NCBI GenBank assembly: GCA_015231925.1
Contig: JADGAQ010000015.1
Coordinates: forward strand, 1-37,694
Source of the DNA: Magnetococcales bacterium
GTDB lineage: Bacteria; Pseudomonadota; Magnetococcia; Magnetococcales; JADGAQ01
Reading direction: 5' to 3'
Length of the DNA: 37,694 bases
Part shown: positions 30,218-37,515 of the stretch, piece after piece
Numbering within the stretch: the stretch's first letter is position 1
Layout of the letters: each line of letters opens with the position of its first letter
The notes under the pieces: model-generated
What the model was told of the DNA's origin: nothing
The model's database searches: none
What the model saw: the letters and a program-made list of their open reading frames with translations, nothing else
Made by a program: the position numbers and the translations under genes

Positions 30218-31456
30218 ATGAAGCAACGAGTCGTCATCACCGGTGTGGGGCTGGTGACGCCCCTGGGAACCGGCACCCAGAAGACCTGGGAAGGTTTGGT
30301 CGCCGGTCGATCCGGTATTGGTCCCATCACCCGTTTCGATGCCACGGAATACTCCTGTCGCATCGCGGGGGAGTGTCGTGACTTCAACGTGGCGGACTGG
30401 GTCGTGGCCAAAGAAGTCAAGAAGATGGATCTCTTCATCCAGTTCGGAGTGGCCGCTGCCCACATGGCCTGGCTCGATTCAGGCCTGGAAGTGAGCGAAG
30501 AGCGCGCTCCCCGCATGGGTGTCCTGATCGGATCGGGTATCGGCGGGCTGGTGGCCATCCAGAACCAGGCCATGGCCATCAAGGAGAAGGGGCCACGCCG
30601 CATCTCGCCCTTCTTCATTCCCATGTCGCTGATCAACCTGATTTCGGGCCATGTGGCCATTCGCTACGGGCTGAAGGGACCCAACCACGCGGTGGTGACC
30701 GCCTGCGCCACGGGTACCCACGCCATCGGCGACGCCGCCCGCCTCATCGCCCGGGGTGAAGCCGATGTCATGCTGGCCGGCGGTGCGGAAGCCGCCATTT
30801 GCGAGTTGGGCATCGGCGGTTTTGCCGCCGCCAAGGCCCTTTCCACCCGCAACGAGGAGCCCGAAAAGGCCTCGCGTCCCTGGGATCGCAACCGGGACGG
30901 TTTCGTGGAATCCGAAGGGTCGGGCGTCGTCGTTCTGGAAAGCCTTGAATCGGCCACCCGGCGCGGTGCGCGCATCTACGCCGAGGTGCTGGGCTACGGC
31001 ATGTCCGGAGACGCCTATCACATCACCGCGCCCGAGCCAACCGGGGACGGTGCTTCCCGCTGCATGAGCGCCGCCCTGGCTGATGCCGGGGTCGCCCCCG
31101 AAGCGGTGGGTTACATCAACGCCCACGGCACCTCCACCCCACTCGGCGATGCCATCGAAGTGGATGCCATCAAACGGGTCTTCGGGCCGGACCATTCCGG
31201 CAAGCTGATGATCTCCTCCACCAAATCGATGGTCGGGCACCTGTTGGGCGCGGCAGGGGGAGTCGAAGCCATCTTCACGGCCTTGACCCTCTACCACGGC
31301 ATCGTTCTGCCGACCATCAACCTGGATGATCCGGAAGACTTCGGCCTCGATTTCGTGCCGCATACGGCGCGTCAGGCAACCGTGGACGTGGCCCTTTCCA
31401 ACTCCTTCGGGTTCGGGGGCACCAACGCTTCCCTGGTGCTGAAACGCTTCCGTTGA
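30218..31456 (+). CDS. fabF: 3-oxoacyl-[acyl-carrier-protein] synthase II
   Basis: FabF condenses malonyl-ACP with acyl-ACP in chain elongation. The 412-residue product carries the Cys-His-His triad: C163 in VVTACATGTH, H303 in YINAHGTSTPLGD and H341 in GHLLGAAGG, with K336 nearby. The C-terminus SNSFGFGGTNASLVL is typical. ATG at 30218 follows GAGAGG. The stop overlaps the mltG start (TTGA). Length and sequence match FabF better than FabB. Confidence 0.96.
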   Translation: MKQRVVITGVGLVTPLGTGTQKTWEGLVAGRSGIGPITRFDATEYSCRIAGECRDFNVADWVVAKEVKKMDLFIQFGVAAAHMAWLDSGLEVSEERAPRMGVLIGSGIGGLVAIQNQAMAIKEKGPRRISPFFIPMSLINLISGHVAIRYGLKGPNHAVVTACATGTHAIGDAARLIARGEADVMLAGGAEAAICELGIGGFAAAKALSTRNEEPEKASRPWDRNRDGFVESEGSGVVVLESLESATRRGARIYAEVLGYGMSGDAYHITAPEPTGDGASRCMSAALADAGVAPEAVGYINAHGTSTPLGDAIEVDAIKRVFGPDHSGKLMISSTKSMVGHLLGAAGGVEAIFTALTLYHGIVLPTINLDDPEDFGLDFVPHTARQATVDVALSNSFGFGGTNASLVLKRFR

Positions 31457-32478
31457 ACAGACGCCTGCTCCTTTCCCTGGCGGCAGCCACGGGTTTCGGA
31501 CTCCTCAGCCTTGGTGGATGGGGGTGGTGGAGCTATCAGCAATTTTTGGAACGGCCAATACCGCAAGCCATCTCCCTGACGGTCGCCAACGGCTGGTCTT
31601 TCAACCGTGTCGCCACGGAACTGGAGGAGGTGGGGGCCATCACCTCCTCCGAGTGGCTTTTCCTGCTCAACCGGCTGGAGCCGGGGGGATTCCTGCAGGC
31701 GGGTGAATATCTCTTTCCGGCCCGTTCCACCCCGCGCACCATTCTGAACCAGTTGCGCAAGGGCGAGGTGGTACACCATCGTTTCACCATTCCGGAGGGT
31801 TGGACGGTTCCGGAAGTGGCCCGGCTGCTGCAACAAACCGCCTGGCCGGAAGCGGTCGAGCTGTTGCGGGATCCCACTCTCCCCGCCCGGCTGGAACTGA
31901 CCGAAAACCATTTGGAAGGCTGGCTCTTTCCGGCAACCTACGATTACCGCAAGGGGGAAGGGCTCTTGTCCATTTTGAAGCAAATGGTTCACCTGTCCCG
32001 ACGCAATCTGGAGGAGGTTTGGTCCAAACGTCCGTCCAGCCATGCCCTGACCCCCTATCAAACCCTGATTTTGGCTTCCATCGTCGAGAAAGAGACCGGG
32101 CAGGATGCGGAACGTCCCGCCATTGCCGGGGTGTTTTACAACCGGCTGTCGCGTCACATGCGCCTGCAGAGTGATCCCACGGTGATCTACGGCGTCTCCG
32201 GGTTCGATGGCAATCTGACCCGTCTGCATCTGCGCACCGACACCCCTTATAACACCTACACCCGTGAAGGGTTGCCGCCCACCCCCATTTGTAATCCGGG
32301 ACGCGAGGCGCTGGAAGCGGTGGTGCATCCTCTGCCGTCGACCCATCTCTATTTCGTGGCCAAAGGGGACGGCAGTCACATCTTCGCCTCCTCCCTGCCC
32401 GAGCATCAGGGCAACGTGCAACACTATCAGAAGGCTGCCCCGACGTCCCGGACGCCATCCACCGCGGCGAATCGATAG
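31453..32478 (+). CDS. mltG: Endolytic murein transglycosylase MltG
   Basis: A 341-residue YceG-family protein. MltG cuts nascent glycan strands inside the inner membrane's periplasmic face and sets glycan length. It has one N-terminal membrane segment (about 5-28), a LysM-like region (SLTVANGWSFNRVATELEE) and the catalytic segment LASIVEKETG with E212, plus FYNRLSRHMRLQSDPTVIYG and YNTYTREGLPPTPICNPG. The start is a TTG overlapping the fabF stop, implying translational coupling. In many genomes pabC lies between fabF and mltG; it is absent here. tmk follows directly. Confidence 0.95.
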   Translation: MNRRLLLSLAAATGFGLLSLGGWGWWSYQQFLERPIPQAISLTVANGWSFNRVATELEEVGAITSSEWLFLLNRLEPGGFLQAGEYLFPARSTPRTILNQLRKGEVVHHRFTIPEGWTVPEVARLLQQTAWPEAVELLRDPTLPARLELTENHLEGWLFPATYDYRKGEGLLSILKQMVHLSRRNLEEVWSKRPSSHALTPYQTLILASIVEKETGQDAERPAIAGVFYNRLSRHMRLQSDPTVIYGVSGFDGNLTRLHLRTDTPYNTYTREGLPPTPICNPGREALEAVVHPLPSTHLYFVAKGDGSHIFASSLPEHQGNVQHYQKAAPTSRTPSTAANR

Positions 32479-32487
32479 GTGGTTGCC

Positions 32488-33126
32488 ATGCCGGGGCGGT
32501 TCATCACCTTCGAAGGTGGCGAGGGCGGCGGAAAGAGCAGCCAATTGTTGCGTCTGGCCAAACGGTTGCGGGAGCGGGGCATCGGGATCCTCTGCAGTCG
32601 GGAACCGGGTGGCACGGAACTGGCGGAAGAGATTCGCAAGCTGCTGGTGCGCCGTAGCGGCGCGGACTCTCTGGCCGCCGAAACCGAGTGGCTGCTGGTG
32701 ACGGCGGCCCGTTTCGAACATGTGCGCCGGGTGATCCGGCCTGCTCTGCAGGAAGGATCCTGGGTGCTGTGCGACCGCTTTTTCGACTCGACCCTGGCCT
32801 ATCAGGGTTTCGGGCGGGGGCTGAATACGGAGATGTTGCAGCGGTTGCAGACCATGCTCTTTCCCGATCTCCGGCCCGACCTGACCCTGCTTCTCGATGT
32901 GAGCCCGGAGGTGGGACTGGCCCGCAGCCGGGGTGGGGAAAAGGGGGAAGACCGGTTCGAGACGGAATCGCTGCTGTTTCACCAAAGGGTGCGTCAGGGC
33001 TTTTTGACCCTGGCGGCGGAAGAATCCCGGCGCATTCGGGTCATCGACGCCGCCCTTTCGGAAGAGCAGGTGTCCACGGCCATTTGGCAACAGGTGACGG
33101 ATGTCTTCCTTTCCGACCTTTCATGA
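32488..33126 (+). CDS. tmk: Thymidylate kinase
   Basis: Tmk phosphorylates dTMP to dTDP for DNA synthesis. The 212-residue product has the P-loop FEGGEGGGKSSQ (8-19), SREPGGTELAE, the DR(Y/F)-type motif LCDRFFDSTLAYQG and LLLDVSPEVGLARS; the lid region RGGEKGEDRFE is also typical. I use the ATG at 32488, five bases after AGGTGG, rather than the GTG at 32479. It overlaps holB by 26 bases, the common mltG-tmk-holB order. Confidence 0.95.
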   Translation: MPGRFITFEGGEGGGKSSQLLRLAKRLRERGIGILCSREPGGTELAEEIRKLLVRRSGADSLAAETEWLLVTAARFEHVRRVIRPALQEGSWVLCDRFFDSTLAYQGFGRGLNTEMLQRLQTMLFPDLRPDLTLLLDVSPEVGLARSRGGEKGEDRFETESLLFHQRVRQGFLTLAAEESRRIRVIDAALSEEQVSTAIWQQVTDVFLSDLS

Positions 33127-34069
33127 CCATGTCGGGCATGCGTCGCAGGTGGCCGGCTTGCATCAGCAGTTGGCCCGTGGGCAGCTTGGCCATGCCTATC
33201 TCTTCACCGGACCGGCAGGTGTCGGCAAGAAGCATCTGGCCCTGGCCCTGGCCGGCGCGGTGTTTTGTCCCCGGCCCGCTCCGGATGGAGGGGCCTGCGG
33301 GGCGTGCAAATCGTGTCGCCAACTCGCTTCCGGCAACCATCCCGATCTGCTGCACCTGCAGGTGGAGGAGGGGCGCACCCGCATCAGTATCGATCAGGTG
33401 CGGGATCTGATCGCTTTTCTGCAGTTGACCCCCACGGAGTCCCGCCGCAAAATCGGTCTGATCGACGAAGTCACCCTGATGAACGAACAGTCGGCCAATG
33501 CCCTGTTGCGTACCCTGGAGGAGCCTCCCGGAGAGGCGCTGCTCTTTCTGGTGACGGAACGTCCGGGGATCCTGTTGCCCACCATTCGTTCCCGCTGCCA
33601 GATTTTGCATCTGGCCCCGCTCTCGGCGGCGGAGATGGAAGCCTTCGTGGCAGGAGCGGTGGATGAGGCGCAACAGGTAACCGCCCGGAGTTTTCTGGCA
33701 CTGGCGGAGGGGGCTCCCGGTCGTCTGCGACAATGGCTGGAGGGCGATATGGCCGAGCTTTGGGCACGCTGGAACCAGGATCTCGATACGGTGGATGCCG
33801 GCAACATCGGTGACTTGTGTCTGCGCGCCGAATTCTGGAGCCAGCCCGAGCGATTTTCCCGAACCGGCGAGTTTTTGCGCATGTGGTTGAGAAAGCGTAT
33901 TCATGCGTTGCTCGGAAAAACCTGTTATGCTGATACGGTCCGAATCTGGTTGCAGGGGGCTTTTTGGAGTTTGCAGCTCTGGCAACGCAGCAGTGTTTTC
34001 AATCTCAATCGAAACCTGGTGATGGAATGCCTTTTCATCCATCTGGCGCGGATCAAAAACCATGAATGA
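33101..34069 (+). CDS. holB: DNA polymerase III subunit delta'
   Basis: Delta' is a stator subunit of the clamp-loader complex. The 322-residue AAA+ protein has a Walker A-like GPAGVGKK (37-44), the zinc-binding cysteines C56, C66, C69 and C72, NEQSANALLRTLEEPPG and TIRSRCQ (SRC motif). It starts at the ATG at 33101 inside tmk, preceded by CAGGTGACGG. Its end overlaps ricT by eight bases. The C-terminal third is weakly conserved, as usual. Confidence 0.93.
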   Translation: MSSFPTFHDHVGHASQVAGLHQQLARGQLGHAYLFTGPAGVGKKHLALALAGAVFCPRPAPDGGACGACKSCRQLASGNHPDLLHLQVEEGRTRISIDQVRDLIAFLQLTPTESRRKIGLIDEVTLMNEQSANALLRTLEEPPGEALLFLVTERPGILLPTIRSRCQILHLAPLSAAEMEAFVAGAVDEAQQVTARSFLALAEGAPGRLRQWLEGDMAELWARWNQDLDTVDAGNIGDLCLRAEFWSQPERFSRTGEFLRMWLRKRIHALLGKTCYADTVRIWLQGAFWSLQLWQRSSVFNLNRNLVMECLFIHLARIKNHE

Positions 34070-35267
34070 GACACCCGAAAGGGAAGAGGTTGCCGCGCCG
34101 CCGGTCGGTTTCCCGGAGAGTGGCGAGACGCGAAACAAGCGGCTGATCGGTTTGCGTATCCACGACTCCTGCATGGTTTTCCGCCTGGCCGTCAACGATC
34201 CTCGCATTGTCCAGGGGGACCAGTTGCTGGTGGAAACCCGCAGAGGTGAGACCGTCGGGCATGTCATGTATGTTGCCGAGGGTCTTTCGGCGCAGGAGGC
34301 GGCGGAGCGCCTCCATCCGGGATGCGTGGTGCGCATCGTGCGCCGCCTGACCCGCAGGGACCGGGAGGCGCAGAACGGGGGTGGGGAGAAGGAACGACAG
34401 GCCAAACAGATCTGCCGGGAAGCCATTCGCGAACTCGGGCTGGAGATGCGGTTGGCCCGTGTCACCTACTTTTCCGCCGGCAACAAGGCCATTTTCTACT
34501 TCACCGCCGAGAACCGGGTCGATTTCCGGGAGTTGGTCAAGCGCATCGTGGCGGAGATGCACATTCGGGTGGAGATGCGCCAGATCGGGGTGCGGGACGA
34601 AAGCCGTCTGCTGGGGGGCATCGGGATGTGCGGACAGGTACTCTGTTGCAATGCCCATCTGCAATCGTTTCACACCGTTTCGGTGCGCATGGCCAAGAAC
34701 CAGGAGATGGCCCTCAATCCTGACGCCATTTCGGGTCTGTGCGGGCGTCTGATGTGTTGCCTGGCGTATGAAAACGACGCTTACAATCAGTTGCGCAAGG
34801 AGCTTCCGCCCCCCGGTTCCCGGTTCAGCACCGAGGATGGTCGCGAAGGGGTGATCAAGTCGGTCAATCCGGTGCGCAAGAGTGCCGACGTGGTCTGTTC
34901 CACGGGAGAGAAGGCCACCCTTGCCCTGTCCGAAATGACCATACTGGATGGTGCGGCGCCCGTTGTGGTGAATGGGGTTGCTGAGGGAGAGGGGGGCGAT
35001 CCGAAGCCTGTGGCGGCGCTCCCTCCCCGGGGAGGTCGGGCCCCCGCCGCCGGACACCCCCCTTCTCCCCGCCGGGAACGCCCCGGCGGAGAACGCAAGA
35101 GAGCGGAGACGCCTCCCCGAGTTGCGGCTCCGCCACCACCCGCTGCCGAAAAGGCAGCCCAACCGCAACCAGCGGAAGGGGAAGCTCCGGCGGCGCGCAA
35201 GCGCCGTCGCCGCCGTCGTCGCAGTGGCGACGGAAACACGCCCCCGACCGAAGGACAACCAACCTGA
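34062..35267 (+). CDS. ricT: PSP1-domain protein, RicT/YaaT family
   Basis: A 401-residue protein whose central PSP1 domain (about 28-245) has the family's paired cysteine clusters MCGQVLCC (C190, C195, C196) and LCGRLMCC (C227, C232, C233), plus YFSAGNKAIFYFTAE. In Bacillus, RicT works with RicA and RicF in an iron-sulfur complex that helps RNase Y process mRNA; the role in Proteobacteria is not settled. After about residue 300 the chain becomes a long Pro/Ala/Arg-rich tail ending in KRRRRRRRSG, which may bind RNA and is not part of the PSP1 core. It overlaps holB by eight bases. In many alphaproteobacteria metG stands between this gene and tatD; here tatD follows after 10 bases. Confidence 0.9.
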   Translation: MNETPEREEVAAPPVGFPESGETRNKRLIGLRIHDSCMVFRLAVNDPRIVQGDQLLVETRRGETVGHVMYVAEGLSAQEAAERLHPGCVVRIVRRLTRRDREAQNGGGEKERQAKQICREAIRELGLEMRLARVTYFSAGNKAIFYFTAENRVDFRELVKRIVAEMHIRVEMRQIGVRDESRLLGGIGMCGQVLCCNAHLQSFHTVSVRMAKNQEMALNPDAISGLCGRLMCCLAYENDAYNQLRKELPPPGSRFSTEDGREGVIKSVNPVRKSADVVCSTGEKATLALSEMTILDGAAPVVVNGVAEGEGGDPKPVAALPPRGGRAPAAGHPPSPRRERPGGERKRAETPPRVAAPPPPAAEKAAQPQPAEGEAPAARKRRRRRRRSGDGNTPPTEGQPT

Positions 35268-35277
35268 CGGTGATGGC

Positions 35278-36666
35278 ATGTTTTGGGACAGTCACGCCCA
35301 TCTGACCTTTGCGGATTTCGCCGGCGAGAGAGAAGCGATTTTGCAGCGGGCTCATGCGGCCGGTGTGGAGGGTATCATCAGTATCGGCACCCGGAAGGCC
35401 GAGGTGCCGGAGCTGGTTGCCCTGTGTCGCCAGAGCCCGTCGCCACTTCTGGCCGTAACGGTGGGAATTCATCCCCATCATGCCGCCGAGGAGGCGTTGA
35501 GTGTGGAGGAGTTGGTGGAGCTGGCTTCCCGGCCGGGAGTGGTGGCCATCGGGGAGACCGGTCTCGACTTCTTTTACAACCACAGCGATACCGCCAGTCA
35601 GGAGGCCTCTTTTCGCCGTCATATCCGGGCGGCCTGCCGTATGGGCCTGCCCCTGGTCATTCATACACGAGATGCCGAATCCCGCACCCGCGCCATCCTC
35701 GAAGAGGAGGACGCCGCTGCCGTCGGTGGGGTGCTGCACTGTTTTTCGGCATCCCGTGATATGGCGGATTGGGCGGTGGAGCAGGGTTTCCACCTCTCCC
35801 TTTCGGGCATGGTGACCTTCAAGGCCGCCGGGGCCTTGCGGGAGACCGTGGCCGGTTTGCCACTGGAGCGGTTGCTGCTGGAGACCGATTCCCCCTATCT
35901 GGCGCCGGTTCCTCACCGGGGGCGGCGCAACGAACCTGCCTTCGTGGCGGAAGTCGCTGCTGCGGTGGCAGCCATTCAGGGGCGCCGTCTTGACGAAGTC
36001 GCCGAGGTGACCAGCGCCAATACCCGGCGATTGTTTCGTCTGGAAAACGGATTGCCGGGGTCTCCCTCCCATCGGGAGGTGCTGGCCTATGTCTTGAGAG
36101 GTTCGCTCTATCTCAACATCTCCCGGGGCTGCACCCTGCACTGCGCTTTTTGCCCCAAGTGGCAGGCCCCGGTCATCGGTGATTTCGACCTCTCCTTGCG
36201 AAAGAACCCCCGTGCCGAAGAGGTTATTCAGGCCATGGGCGACATTGGCTCTTATCGGGAAGTGGTTTTTTGCGGTTTTGGCGAACCTACTCTGCGCCTG
36301 GGGGTGCTTCTGGAAGTGGCGCGTGAGGTCAAGCGTCAGGGCGGTCGGGTGCGCATCAATACCGACGGACTGGCCAATCGGGTGCATCGTCGGGATGTCA
36401 CACCCGAGTTGGCCGGTTTGATCGACGAGGTTTCCGTTTCGCTCAACGCGCAAAACGCCGTGGTTTATAACCGGCATTGTCAGCCGGCTTTTCCGGATGC
36501 CTGGGAGGAGGTGCAGGATTTCATTCGTAAAGCGGTGCGTTTTGTACCCACGGTGACCGCCACGGCCATCGACGGTTTACCCGGTGTGGACATGGAGGCC
36601 TGCGAATCATTGGCCTTGTCCCTGGGGGCGCGTTTTCGGGCACGATTCTTGAATGATGTCGGGTGA
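35278..36666 (+). CDS. TatD hydrolase fused to a TatD-linked radical SAM domain
   Basis: A 462-residue two-domain protein. Residues 1-257 form a TatD-type metal-dependent hydrolase: DSHAHL (H6, H8), IGETGLDFFY (E93), LVIHTRDA (H129), GGVLHCFS (H154) and LLLETDSPYL (D204). TatD enzymes are 3'-5' exonucleases/DNases. Residues 270-462 form a radical SAM domain with the iron-sulfur cysteines C285, C289 and C292 in RGCTLHCAFCPKW, followed by VVFCGFGEPTLR and RINTDGLANR. Radical SAM proteins linked to TatD, adjacent or fused, are a known family (TIGR04038-type); their reaction is not established. The start is the ATG at 35278; the frame upstream lies over ricT. The joining linker is only about 12 residues with no internal stop. 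Confidence 0.93.
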   Translation: MFWDSHAHLTFADFAGEREAILQRAHAAGVEGIISIGTRKAEVPELVALCRQSPSPLLAVTVGIHPHHAAEEALSVEELVELASRPGVVAIGETGLDFFYNHSDTASQEASFRRHIRAACRMGLPLVIHTRDAESRTRAILEEEDAAAVGGVLHCFSASRDMADWAVEQGFHLSLSGMVTFKAAGALRETVAGLPLERLLLETDSPYLAPVPHRGRRNEPAFVAEVAAAVAAIQGRRLDEVAEVTSANTRRLFRLENGLPGSPSHREVLAYVLRGSLYLNISRGCTLHCAFCPKWQAPVIGDFDLSLRKNPRAEEVIQAMGDIGSYREVVFCGFGEPTLRLGVLLEVAREVKRQGGRVRINTDGLANRVHRRDVTPELAGLIDEVSVSLNAQNAVVYNRHCQPAFPDAWEEVQDFIRKAVRFVPTVTATAIDGLPGVDMEACESLALSLGARFRARFLNDVG

Positions 36667-36717: not shown

Positions 36718-37515
36718 ATGAACAAGGGGGTAAAACAACTTTTTCAGAATCTGCTGGGGCTGAAGGGATCCTCCTCGACACCCTCCGGAATGGTGCGGGA
36801 ACGGGGGCCGGACGTTATTCGGGATCCTGCGAGAATTACTGATATCATGACACAGGCCATGACTCAGGAGTTACCTCTTCAGCTTCATCTCGACAAGTTG
36901 CCGTTGACCTATTATTCCGGTTTTCAGTCTCCCGAAGAGGACGATCCAAAAGCCTTGTGGATTTCTCCGCTGGATCCCCAGGAGGGAAATGCCCAATTGG
37001 CGGTGGTCAGCCAGGTGGAGATCTCCTTCTTCGCGGAAAAAGGCACCATGCGGGCTTTACTGCGGGTGGAGGAACAGGCTGCCGATGGTTCCATCCGTCT
37101 GAACTGGCCCGAAAAGCTGTTACACGACACCCAGAAGCGTTCCCTTTACCGGGTGGATGTCGATTCTTCCTGCGGCATTAAAATCCAGTTGTGGGACAGT
37201 CAGGGGAAAAGATTGCCCATCAACCCTCTCGACATCAGCACCGGGGGAATCTCCTTTTCCAGCCAGACGGTCCACGAAACCCTGGCCAAGGGTAATCGGG
37301 TGCGTGTGCAGTTTCTCCTGCCGGAAGGGGAAGAGTCCTTTGGTATCGACGGCGTCATGTTGGGCAGTGTGGCCAAGGACCGCATACACCATATTTATCG
37401 CCTTCGTTTTCTGATTGCCTCTTACGAGGTGGCGCGGCGGGTGGAAGAGCTGGTGGCCATGCTGCAACGCCGTATTTTGCAGAAACGGAGCCGGATTTCC
37501 CAGTCCAGGGCTTGA
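36718..37515 (+). CDS. PilZ-domain protein (YcgR-like), c-di-GMP receptor
   Basis: A 265-residue protein with an N-terminal ~90-residue region resembling the YcgR N-terminal (flagellar brake) domain after a variable lead-in, then a PilZ domain. The c-di-GMP motif is visible: RSLYR (R141 and R145, RxxxR) and DISTGGISF (172-180, D/NxSxxG). YcgR-type proteins slow the flagellar motor or redirect adhesion when c-di-GMP is high; which output applies here is unknown. The ATG at 36718 follows AGGGGA at a long spacing of about 11 bases. It lies 51 bases after the TatD fusion gene and could be co-transcribed. No flagellar gene is in the window. Confidence 0.85.
   Translation: MNKGVKQLFQNLLGLKGSSSTPSGMVRERGPDVIRDPARITDIMTQAMTQELPLQLHLDKLPLTYYSGFQSPEEDDPKALWISPLDPQEGNAQLAVVSQVEISFFAEKGTMRALLRVEEQAADGSIRLNWPEKLLHDTQKRSLYRVDVDSSCGIKIQLWDSQGKRLPINPLDISTGGISFSSQTVHETLAKGNRVRVQFLLPEGEESFGIDGVMLGSVAKDRIHHIYRLRFLIASYEVARRVEELVAMLQRRILQKRSRISQSRA

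Follow-up and report, generated by a model that had tools for sequence, protein, structure and literature searches.

A TatD nuclease and a radical SAM enzyme in one chain: a Magnetococcales member of the TIGR04038 family and its fused, adjacent and lone relatives

Introduction

Radical SAM enzymes cleave S-adenosylmethionine (SAM) bound to a [4Fe-4S] cluster, yielding a 5′-deoxyadenosyl radical. Individual families are told apart by what surrounds this core: RlmN and Cfr place a catalytic cysteine just ahead of the cluster motif and in their C-terminal part carry a cysteine that is methylated, and SPASM and twitch enzymes carry an auxiliary-cluster domain at the C-terminus. One family, TIGR04038 (tatD_link_rSAM), takes its name from a link, by fusion or adjacency, to TatD nucleases. 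A sequence-only reading of the DNA studied here held that the reaction of this family had not been described, and we likewise found no reported reaction in the literature searched under the family identifier and related terms; papers that pair TatD with radical SAM proteins do so incidentally, to judge by their listing.

TatD enzymes are better characterized. They are 3′-end-trimming enzymes; the E. coli members TatD and YcfH also cleave AP sites, YcfH being a 3′-exonuclease that prefers single-stranded DNA and an AP-endonuclease on double-stranded DNA (PMC10085689). E. coli TatD degrades single-stranded DNA and RNA, and cells that have lost it are less resistant to H2O2 (PMC4176340). Here we analyze a gene that encodes both kinds of domain in one predicted chain, in a 37,694-nucleotide stretch of Magnetococcales DNA that we refer to as the window, and compare it with its relatives.

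Results

The two domains lie in a single uninterrupted frame (Table 1). All 462 codons are read through, and the open frame as a whole spans positions 34972 to 36666, with neither a stop nor a frameshift near 36060, where the domains meet; the unbroken chain proposed by the sequence-only reading was thus borne out. Long open frames are also present on the opposite strand of this GC-rich locus, so frame length alone is no proof of a gene, and proof comes from the domain matches. Both domains share one frame in 26 of 26 loci fetched from the window's own and same-order genomes, the window's included, these being the best-scoring among 41 such genomes above the TIGR04038 cut-off. The fusion architecture is real and conserved, and the family to which it belongs is already catalogued, with the TatD link in its NCBIfam name. 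The spacer between the domains, described earlier as short, is about 14 residues in the window protein and 7-37 residues, mostly 7-17, across 90 fused loci measured with custom profiles, a set that includes repeats of the same gene. In one of the other 15 of these 41 genomes (G053; C169:1608-2057) only model positions 44-191 of TIGR04038 are matched, in a 156-aa frame, which may reflect a contig end, a frameshift or a split gene. Six same-order loci (L017, L022, L023, L024, L034 and L036) share identical radical SAM domains with Magnetococcales MAGs (L038, L042, L037, L050, L039 and L049, respectively), in line with placement of the order as Magnetococcales.

Table 1. Features of the fusion gene and its surroundings in the window.
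Feature	Position	Strand	Basis or remark
mltG, endolytic transglycosylase	31453..32478	+	NCBIfam/Pfam
tmk, dTMP kinase	32479..33126	+	NCBIfam/Pfam
holB, DNA polymerase III delta'	33101..34069	+	NCBIfam/Pfam
ricT / PSP1	34062..35267	+	directly upstream of fusion, 10-bp gap; NCBIfam/Pfam
tatD::rSAM fusion gene	35278..36666	+	462 aa + stop; translation, NCBIfam and Pfam matches
TatD (YcfH-like, HxH group II) nuclease domain	35284..36039	+	residues 3-254; NCBIfam/Pfam, 1yix
Linker	36040..36081	+	residues 255-268; library matches; model confidence <50 at 259-264
TIGR04038 radical SAM domain	36082..36648	+	residues 269-457; NCBIfam
CxxxCxxC cluster motif	36130..36153	+	residues 285-292; alignment of relatives
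C-GxGEP motif with extra Cys332	36271..36288	+	residues 332-337; alignment of relatives
C-terminal tail, end -VG	36649..36663	+	ending shared by most of the fused and the gammaproteobacterial forms
PilZ-domain gene, just after fusion	36718-37515		PF07238, 5.5e-05, 23.9 bits, cut-off 22.5

The N-terminal half is a TatD domain by both PF01026 (residues 4-254, 1e-78, 264.7 bits) and TIGR00010, the NCBIfam model for TatD nucleases (residues 3-254, 264 bits against a cut-off of 206). Residues H6, H8, E93, H129, H154 and D204, which correspond to the metal ligands of TatD enzymes, are invariant in 32 of 32 fused rows (alignment A3) and align with their counterparts in E. coli YcfH (PDB 1yix), the closest solved relative (5e-57). 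Since the score against the YcfH equivalog model NF008075 (PRK10812.1) is 218.1 bits, below the cut-off of 438, we call the domain YcfH-like and make no claim of strict equivalence. The HxH motif places it in group II alongside YcfH, following the classification in PMC10085689. From its family, the TatD half would belong to the metal-dependent 3′-5′ exonuclease/AP-endonuclease class. It falls short of QatD of the Qat defence system, scoring 76.8 bits against a cut-off of 230, and 61.4 bits with the PADLOC QatD model. The window's genome has one further TatD (L119, G000:C60:3038-3778), which stands alone and sits on a distant branch of the TatD tree; L109, L085 and L111 come from genomes in which the fusion is the sole TatD match, and the genome of L113 has two weak extra matches.

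The C-terminal half is assigned by TIGR04038, 'TatD family nuclease-associated radical SAM protein', which matches residues 269-457 over model positions 2-190 of 192 (8.8e-76, 254 bits, cut-off 129.7), and by PF04055 on residues 280-445 (2.6e-15). The TatD partner that the family name calls for, fused or adjacent, is here in the same chain, and the CxxxCxxC motif and predicted barrel fold are those of the radical SAM superfamily. In an alignment of 165 distinct relatives (residue counts and tree exclude L002 and L005, which score 27-32 bits and belong to other families), C285, C289 and C292 are present in 164 rows, the remaining row being gapped there. The earlier claim of two intact active-site sets in one chain, comprising six TatD ligands and three radical SAM cysteines, stands, coordinates included. 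As a family member, the radical half would be expected to bind a [4Fe-4S] cluster and cleave SAM.

Beyond the cluster motif, the alignment points to further candidate active-site residues. A near-invariant extra cysteine, C332 (36271-36273), directly precedes GxGEP in 164 of 165 rows, and residue patterns raise the prospect that it may be part of the chemistry or of metal binding; C401 is kept in 153 rows and C442 in 147. R359 is present in all 165 rows, R454 in 148 (lysine in 12) and R456 in 163 (two gaps), and Y271, Y278, N280, G333, G335, E336, P337, T362, G364, D383, S388, N390 and Y397 are also conserved across the family. The pairs R359/N361, S386/S388 and R454/R456 alternate on strands of the predicted structure and, judged by this alternation rather than by coordinates, should face the barrel lumen; arginines 359, 454 and 456 pointing into the barrel would suggest an anionic substrate. 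A (V/L/I/A)G chain end is found in 72 of 77 fused rows, in 47 of 47 lone or near rows outside the set from Clostridia, plasmid and Acidobacteriota, and in 2 of the 39 rows of that set, counts that leave out L011 and L067, both cut by contig ends.

Structure prediction of the radical SAM half alone gave pLDDT 95.5 and pTM 0.91. The full chain reached pLDDT 92.9 and pTM 0.70, with residues 259-264 below 50, which leaves the relative placing of the two domains uncertain. By predicted fold and chain length the radical half is no more than a minimal barrel of the superfamily, lacking additions of the SPASM or RlmN type. Its fold neighbours are NifB (Z 16.3), pyruvate formate-lyase (PFL) activase (3c8f; Z 16.2, 177 aligned, rmsd 2.7, level with NifB), viperin (14.8), RlmN (14.3) and TYW1 (14.3), with identities of 14-20% to the best of them. 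The top 13 rows lie within Z 2 of one another and include enzymes for peptides, nucleotides, metal clusters and RNA; with so many families tied, the fold comparison does not pick a reaction, and families outside the list stay in play. Searching the PDB by profile, with E of 0.01 as the limit, gave only seven sequences, representing a sactipeptide-type enzyme (5wgg), RlmN, MoaA and TYW1 (2yx0), the labels of 5wgg and 2yx0 being taken from entry titles.

Matches to TIGR04038 above its cut-off are spread over several phyla. They were found within the window's phylum in 45 of 398 genomes (41 of 48 listed from its own or the same order, 4 of the 350 others), in 71 of 299 genomes from the phylum of a Clostridiales genome, in 35 of 199 from that of a Planctomycetota genome and in 7 of 199 from that of an Acidobacteria genome; among 14 control genomes the only one was the archaeon Methanosarcina acetivorans. 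Surveying fused versus adjacent forms, as had been proposed, we classed 181 loci, of which 90 are fused, 14 have TatD directly upstream, 2 have it near and 75 have none in the stretch. These stretches cover 1.5 to 6 kb on each side, less at contig ends; the loci fetched are the best-scoring rather than a random draw, and they include repeats of the same gene as well as L002 and L005.

The fusion occurs in Magnetococcales, Planctomycetota, Nitrospinota, one Omnitrophota genome and one genome of the Acidobacteriota phylum. By draw, the window's phylum gave 27 fused and 3 lone loci (n = 30), the Planctomycetota phylum 30 fused of 30 (the TatD of L171 being cut by the end of its stretch), the Acidobacteria phylum 1 fused and 6 lone (n = 7), and the Clostridiales phylum 12 with tatD directly upstream, 1 near and 17 lone (n = 30), with none fused. 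A further set of 80 loci that includes proteobacteria contained 31 fused, 46 lone, 2 adjacent and 1 near. In Gammaproteobacteria the radical SAM gene stands alone. A TatD gene was present elsewhere in each of 13 lone-form genomes searched, which says little since 14 of 14 control genomes have a TatD too. The sequence-only reading had argued that fusion strongly implies linked action. Recurrence of the pair, fused or adjacent, in several phyla does support a link beyond chance, but the inference was worded too strongly: 45 of the 46 unfused proteobacterial loci in the 80-locus set lack TatD in the stretch (mostly 6 kb each side, less at contig ends), the remaining one (L065) having it ~0.7 kb downstream.

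Several apparent extensions of this distribution were set aside. Frames of 695-925 aa in Planctomycetota looked like triple fusions; in the two scanned (L099 and L115) the NCBIfam matches are TatD and radical SAM only, so the rest of the frame looks like read-through. In the Clostridia draw, the 493-aa frame of L206 suggested a fused member, yet the TatD profile finds nothing there, and we regard it as read-through, a reminder that a long open frame is no proof of fusion. A scan of viral contigs matched six stretches, none of them confirmed, and 0 PHROGs families matched. Two unannotated faecal 'Bacteriophage sp.' records, MT835993.1 (L187) and MT836245.1, carry radical SAM relatives at 31-32% and may be bacterial DNA. 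A 176-kb plasmid of Monoglobus pectinilyticus (NZ_OY725742.1, L117) encodes a relative annotated as TIGR04100.

The history of the pairing was approached through trees of both halves. On the radical SAM tree (109 rows less than 80% identical: 53 fused, 49 lone or near, 7 adjacent), fused versus not fused requires 5 changes. The gammaproteobacterial lone group (27 rows, SH-aLRT 99) lies beside the fused Magnetococcales, with 98 for the joint group. In the TatD tree, too, the Magnetococcales fusion has as its neighbours the unfused proteins from 12 lone-form genomes (joint group 90). Because Magnetococcales and Gammaproteobacteria are neighbours in both trees, both halves seem to have been inherited together, and the history would seem to be either one of splitting in Gammaproteobacteria or one of joining in Magnetococcales; the trees are unrooted and quick, so gain and loss of the fusion look the same in them. 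In L072 and L081 the radical SAM part falls inside the Magnetococcales group (96), and the TatDs of their genomes (L209, L218) fall inside the gammaproteobacterial group (97); here the radical half seems, by tree position, to have moved alone. Since the radical SAM enzyme also exists without an attached nuclease, TatD is an old but not obligatory partner.

Gene order around the fusion also recurs. In the window, mltG, tmk, holB, ricT and the fusion follow one another on one strand; most Nitrospinota loci read holB-ricT-metG-fusion and two Clostridiales loci metG-tatD-rSAM (the identities of the metG, holB and ricT clusters were confirmed on one member each). Lone forms share no common neighbour, no neighbour family occurring in more than 9 of 50 loci. 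Close to lone proteobacterial loci (51 neighbours) the most frequent Pfam families are cytochrome c' (8) and CXXCH (7), followed by several with 5 (L005 was left out, its radical SAM protein being of another family), and among 33 neighbours at Clostridia, plasmid and Acidobacteriota loci DUF3792 is commonest (8). With wider flanks (up to 6 kb each side), the 18 loci of the Clostridia draw classed as lone or near include 5 that adjoin ksgA or a yabE-like DUF348/G5/3D gene and just one, the near locus L189, that has TatD within the stretch. At L190, L191, L195, L198, L200-L203 and L205 the lone gene is divergent from a DUF3792 gene, and in several of them an HMA (heavy-metal-associated) domain gene is nearby.

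Discussion

We consider it probable that the architecture, the partnership with TatD and an intact radical reaction of some kind all hold for this protein. The chain would then consist of a minimal TIGR04038 enzyme carried by a YcfH-like TatD through a short flexible linker. By analogy with the two families, the TatD half would hydrolyse phosphodiesters of damaged or single-stranded nucleic acid, and a [4Fe-4S] cluster on C285, C289 and C292 would cleave SAM to a 5′-deoxyadenosyl radical, which would in turn abstract hydrogen from a bound substrate.

As to the nature of that substrate, we favour a nucleotide or a compound derived from nucleic acid, on the grounds that the steady partner is a nuclease and that the conserved arginines fit an anionic ligand. 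This reading may well be right, and we hold it tentatively. The sequence-only reading had named DNA or nucleotide repair as one possible role. Set against our reading are the small size of the radical half (~195 residues with no nucleic-acid-binding addition, a build no less reminiscent of activases or QueE-type enzymes), a fold equally compatible with peptide enzymes, and the free-standing forms, those of Gammaproteobacteria among them, for which no common neighbour emerged. That both halves act successively on one substrate is possible, though we lean against it. A specific tandem is improbable as a whole: TatD would open or trim nucleic acid where it is damaged or modified, and on the nucleotide thereby exposed or released the radical half would repair, remove or install a group. 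C332 and the arginine-lined pocket would serve a chemistry without precedent among known radical SAM families, and Gammaproteobacteria would run the same pathway with separate chains.

It is a serious possibility that the two halves have unrelated substrates and share only their regulation, the radical SAM gene having stood downstream of tatD in an old housekeeping row and been joined to it by loss of a stop. The Clostridia gene lies just downstream of tatD in 12 of 30 loci, and lone or near Clostridia loci adjoin ksgA or the yabE-like gene in 5 of 18 cases with TatD in one; the lone forms' lack of a common neighbour, the predicted flexibility of the linker and the mixed types L072 and L081, in which the radical half seems to have moved by itself, point the same way. 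What this account explains less readily is that several phyla have kept the fused state, with the residue sets of both halves intact and the linker short.

A role like that of a small activase, placing a radical on a partner protein or otherwise modifying it, is unlikely. The fold is close to that of PFL activase, tied with NifB, but viperin, TYW1 and RlmN fit nearly as well, and neither a glycyl-radical enzyme nor a steady protein partner appears among the 25 commonest Pfam families (51 neighbours) and the further 19 (33 neighbours) at the loci surveyed. An artefact from a missed stop, frameshift or chimeric contig, which the draft state of the assembly (358 contigs, 4.5 Mb), the read-through frame of L206 elsewhere and the partial frame of G053 in the same order might bring to mind, was dropped as practically refuted, given the uninterrupted translation and the same domain order with a short linker in separate assemblies, comprising all 26 fetched same-order loci and those of other phyla.

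The family is present in several bacterial phyla and one archaeal control genome, often fused to or beside a nuclease of housekeeping type, and should the two halves work one after the other, the fusion would be a nucleic-acid processing enzyme of a new type. The lone gammaproteobacterial proteins, for instance that of Neptunomonas japonica (L075), are natural forms in which the radical enzyme is open to assay with no TatD attached, and C332, C401, C442, R359, R454, R456 and the -VG end are conserved candidates for variants outside the cluster motif.

Compared with radical SAM enzymes of known structure, the window protein shares the barrel of RlmN, TYW1, viperin, NifB and PFL activase (Z 14.3-16.3), and the extra domains and clusters of those enzymes are not seen in its short chain. 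Residues 258-284 contain no cysteine, in contrast to RlmN/Cfr, and the chain ends at residue 462, five residues past the matched core, which also leaves no room for a SPASM or twitch domain. TIGR04100 (rSAM_pair_X) is a related radical SAM family that matches the same residues at 150.4 bits, below its cut-off of 262, and ten lone relatives scanned with this profile also fall below it. E. coli YcfH shares the TatD domain over its whole length, with the ligand residues and the HxH motif, but is a 265-residue chain without a radical SAM domain, unlike the fusion. With TIGR04038 itself we found no difference of substance: the window protein is one more fused member of a known family. To the catalogued family our analysis adds the YcfH-like type of its TatD partner, the gene-row setting, the spread over phyla, and the adjacent and lone forms.
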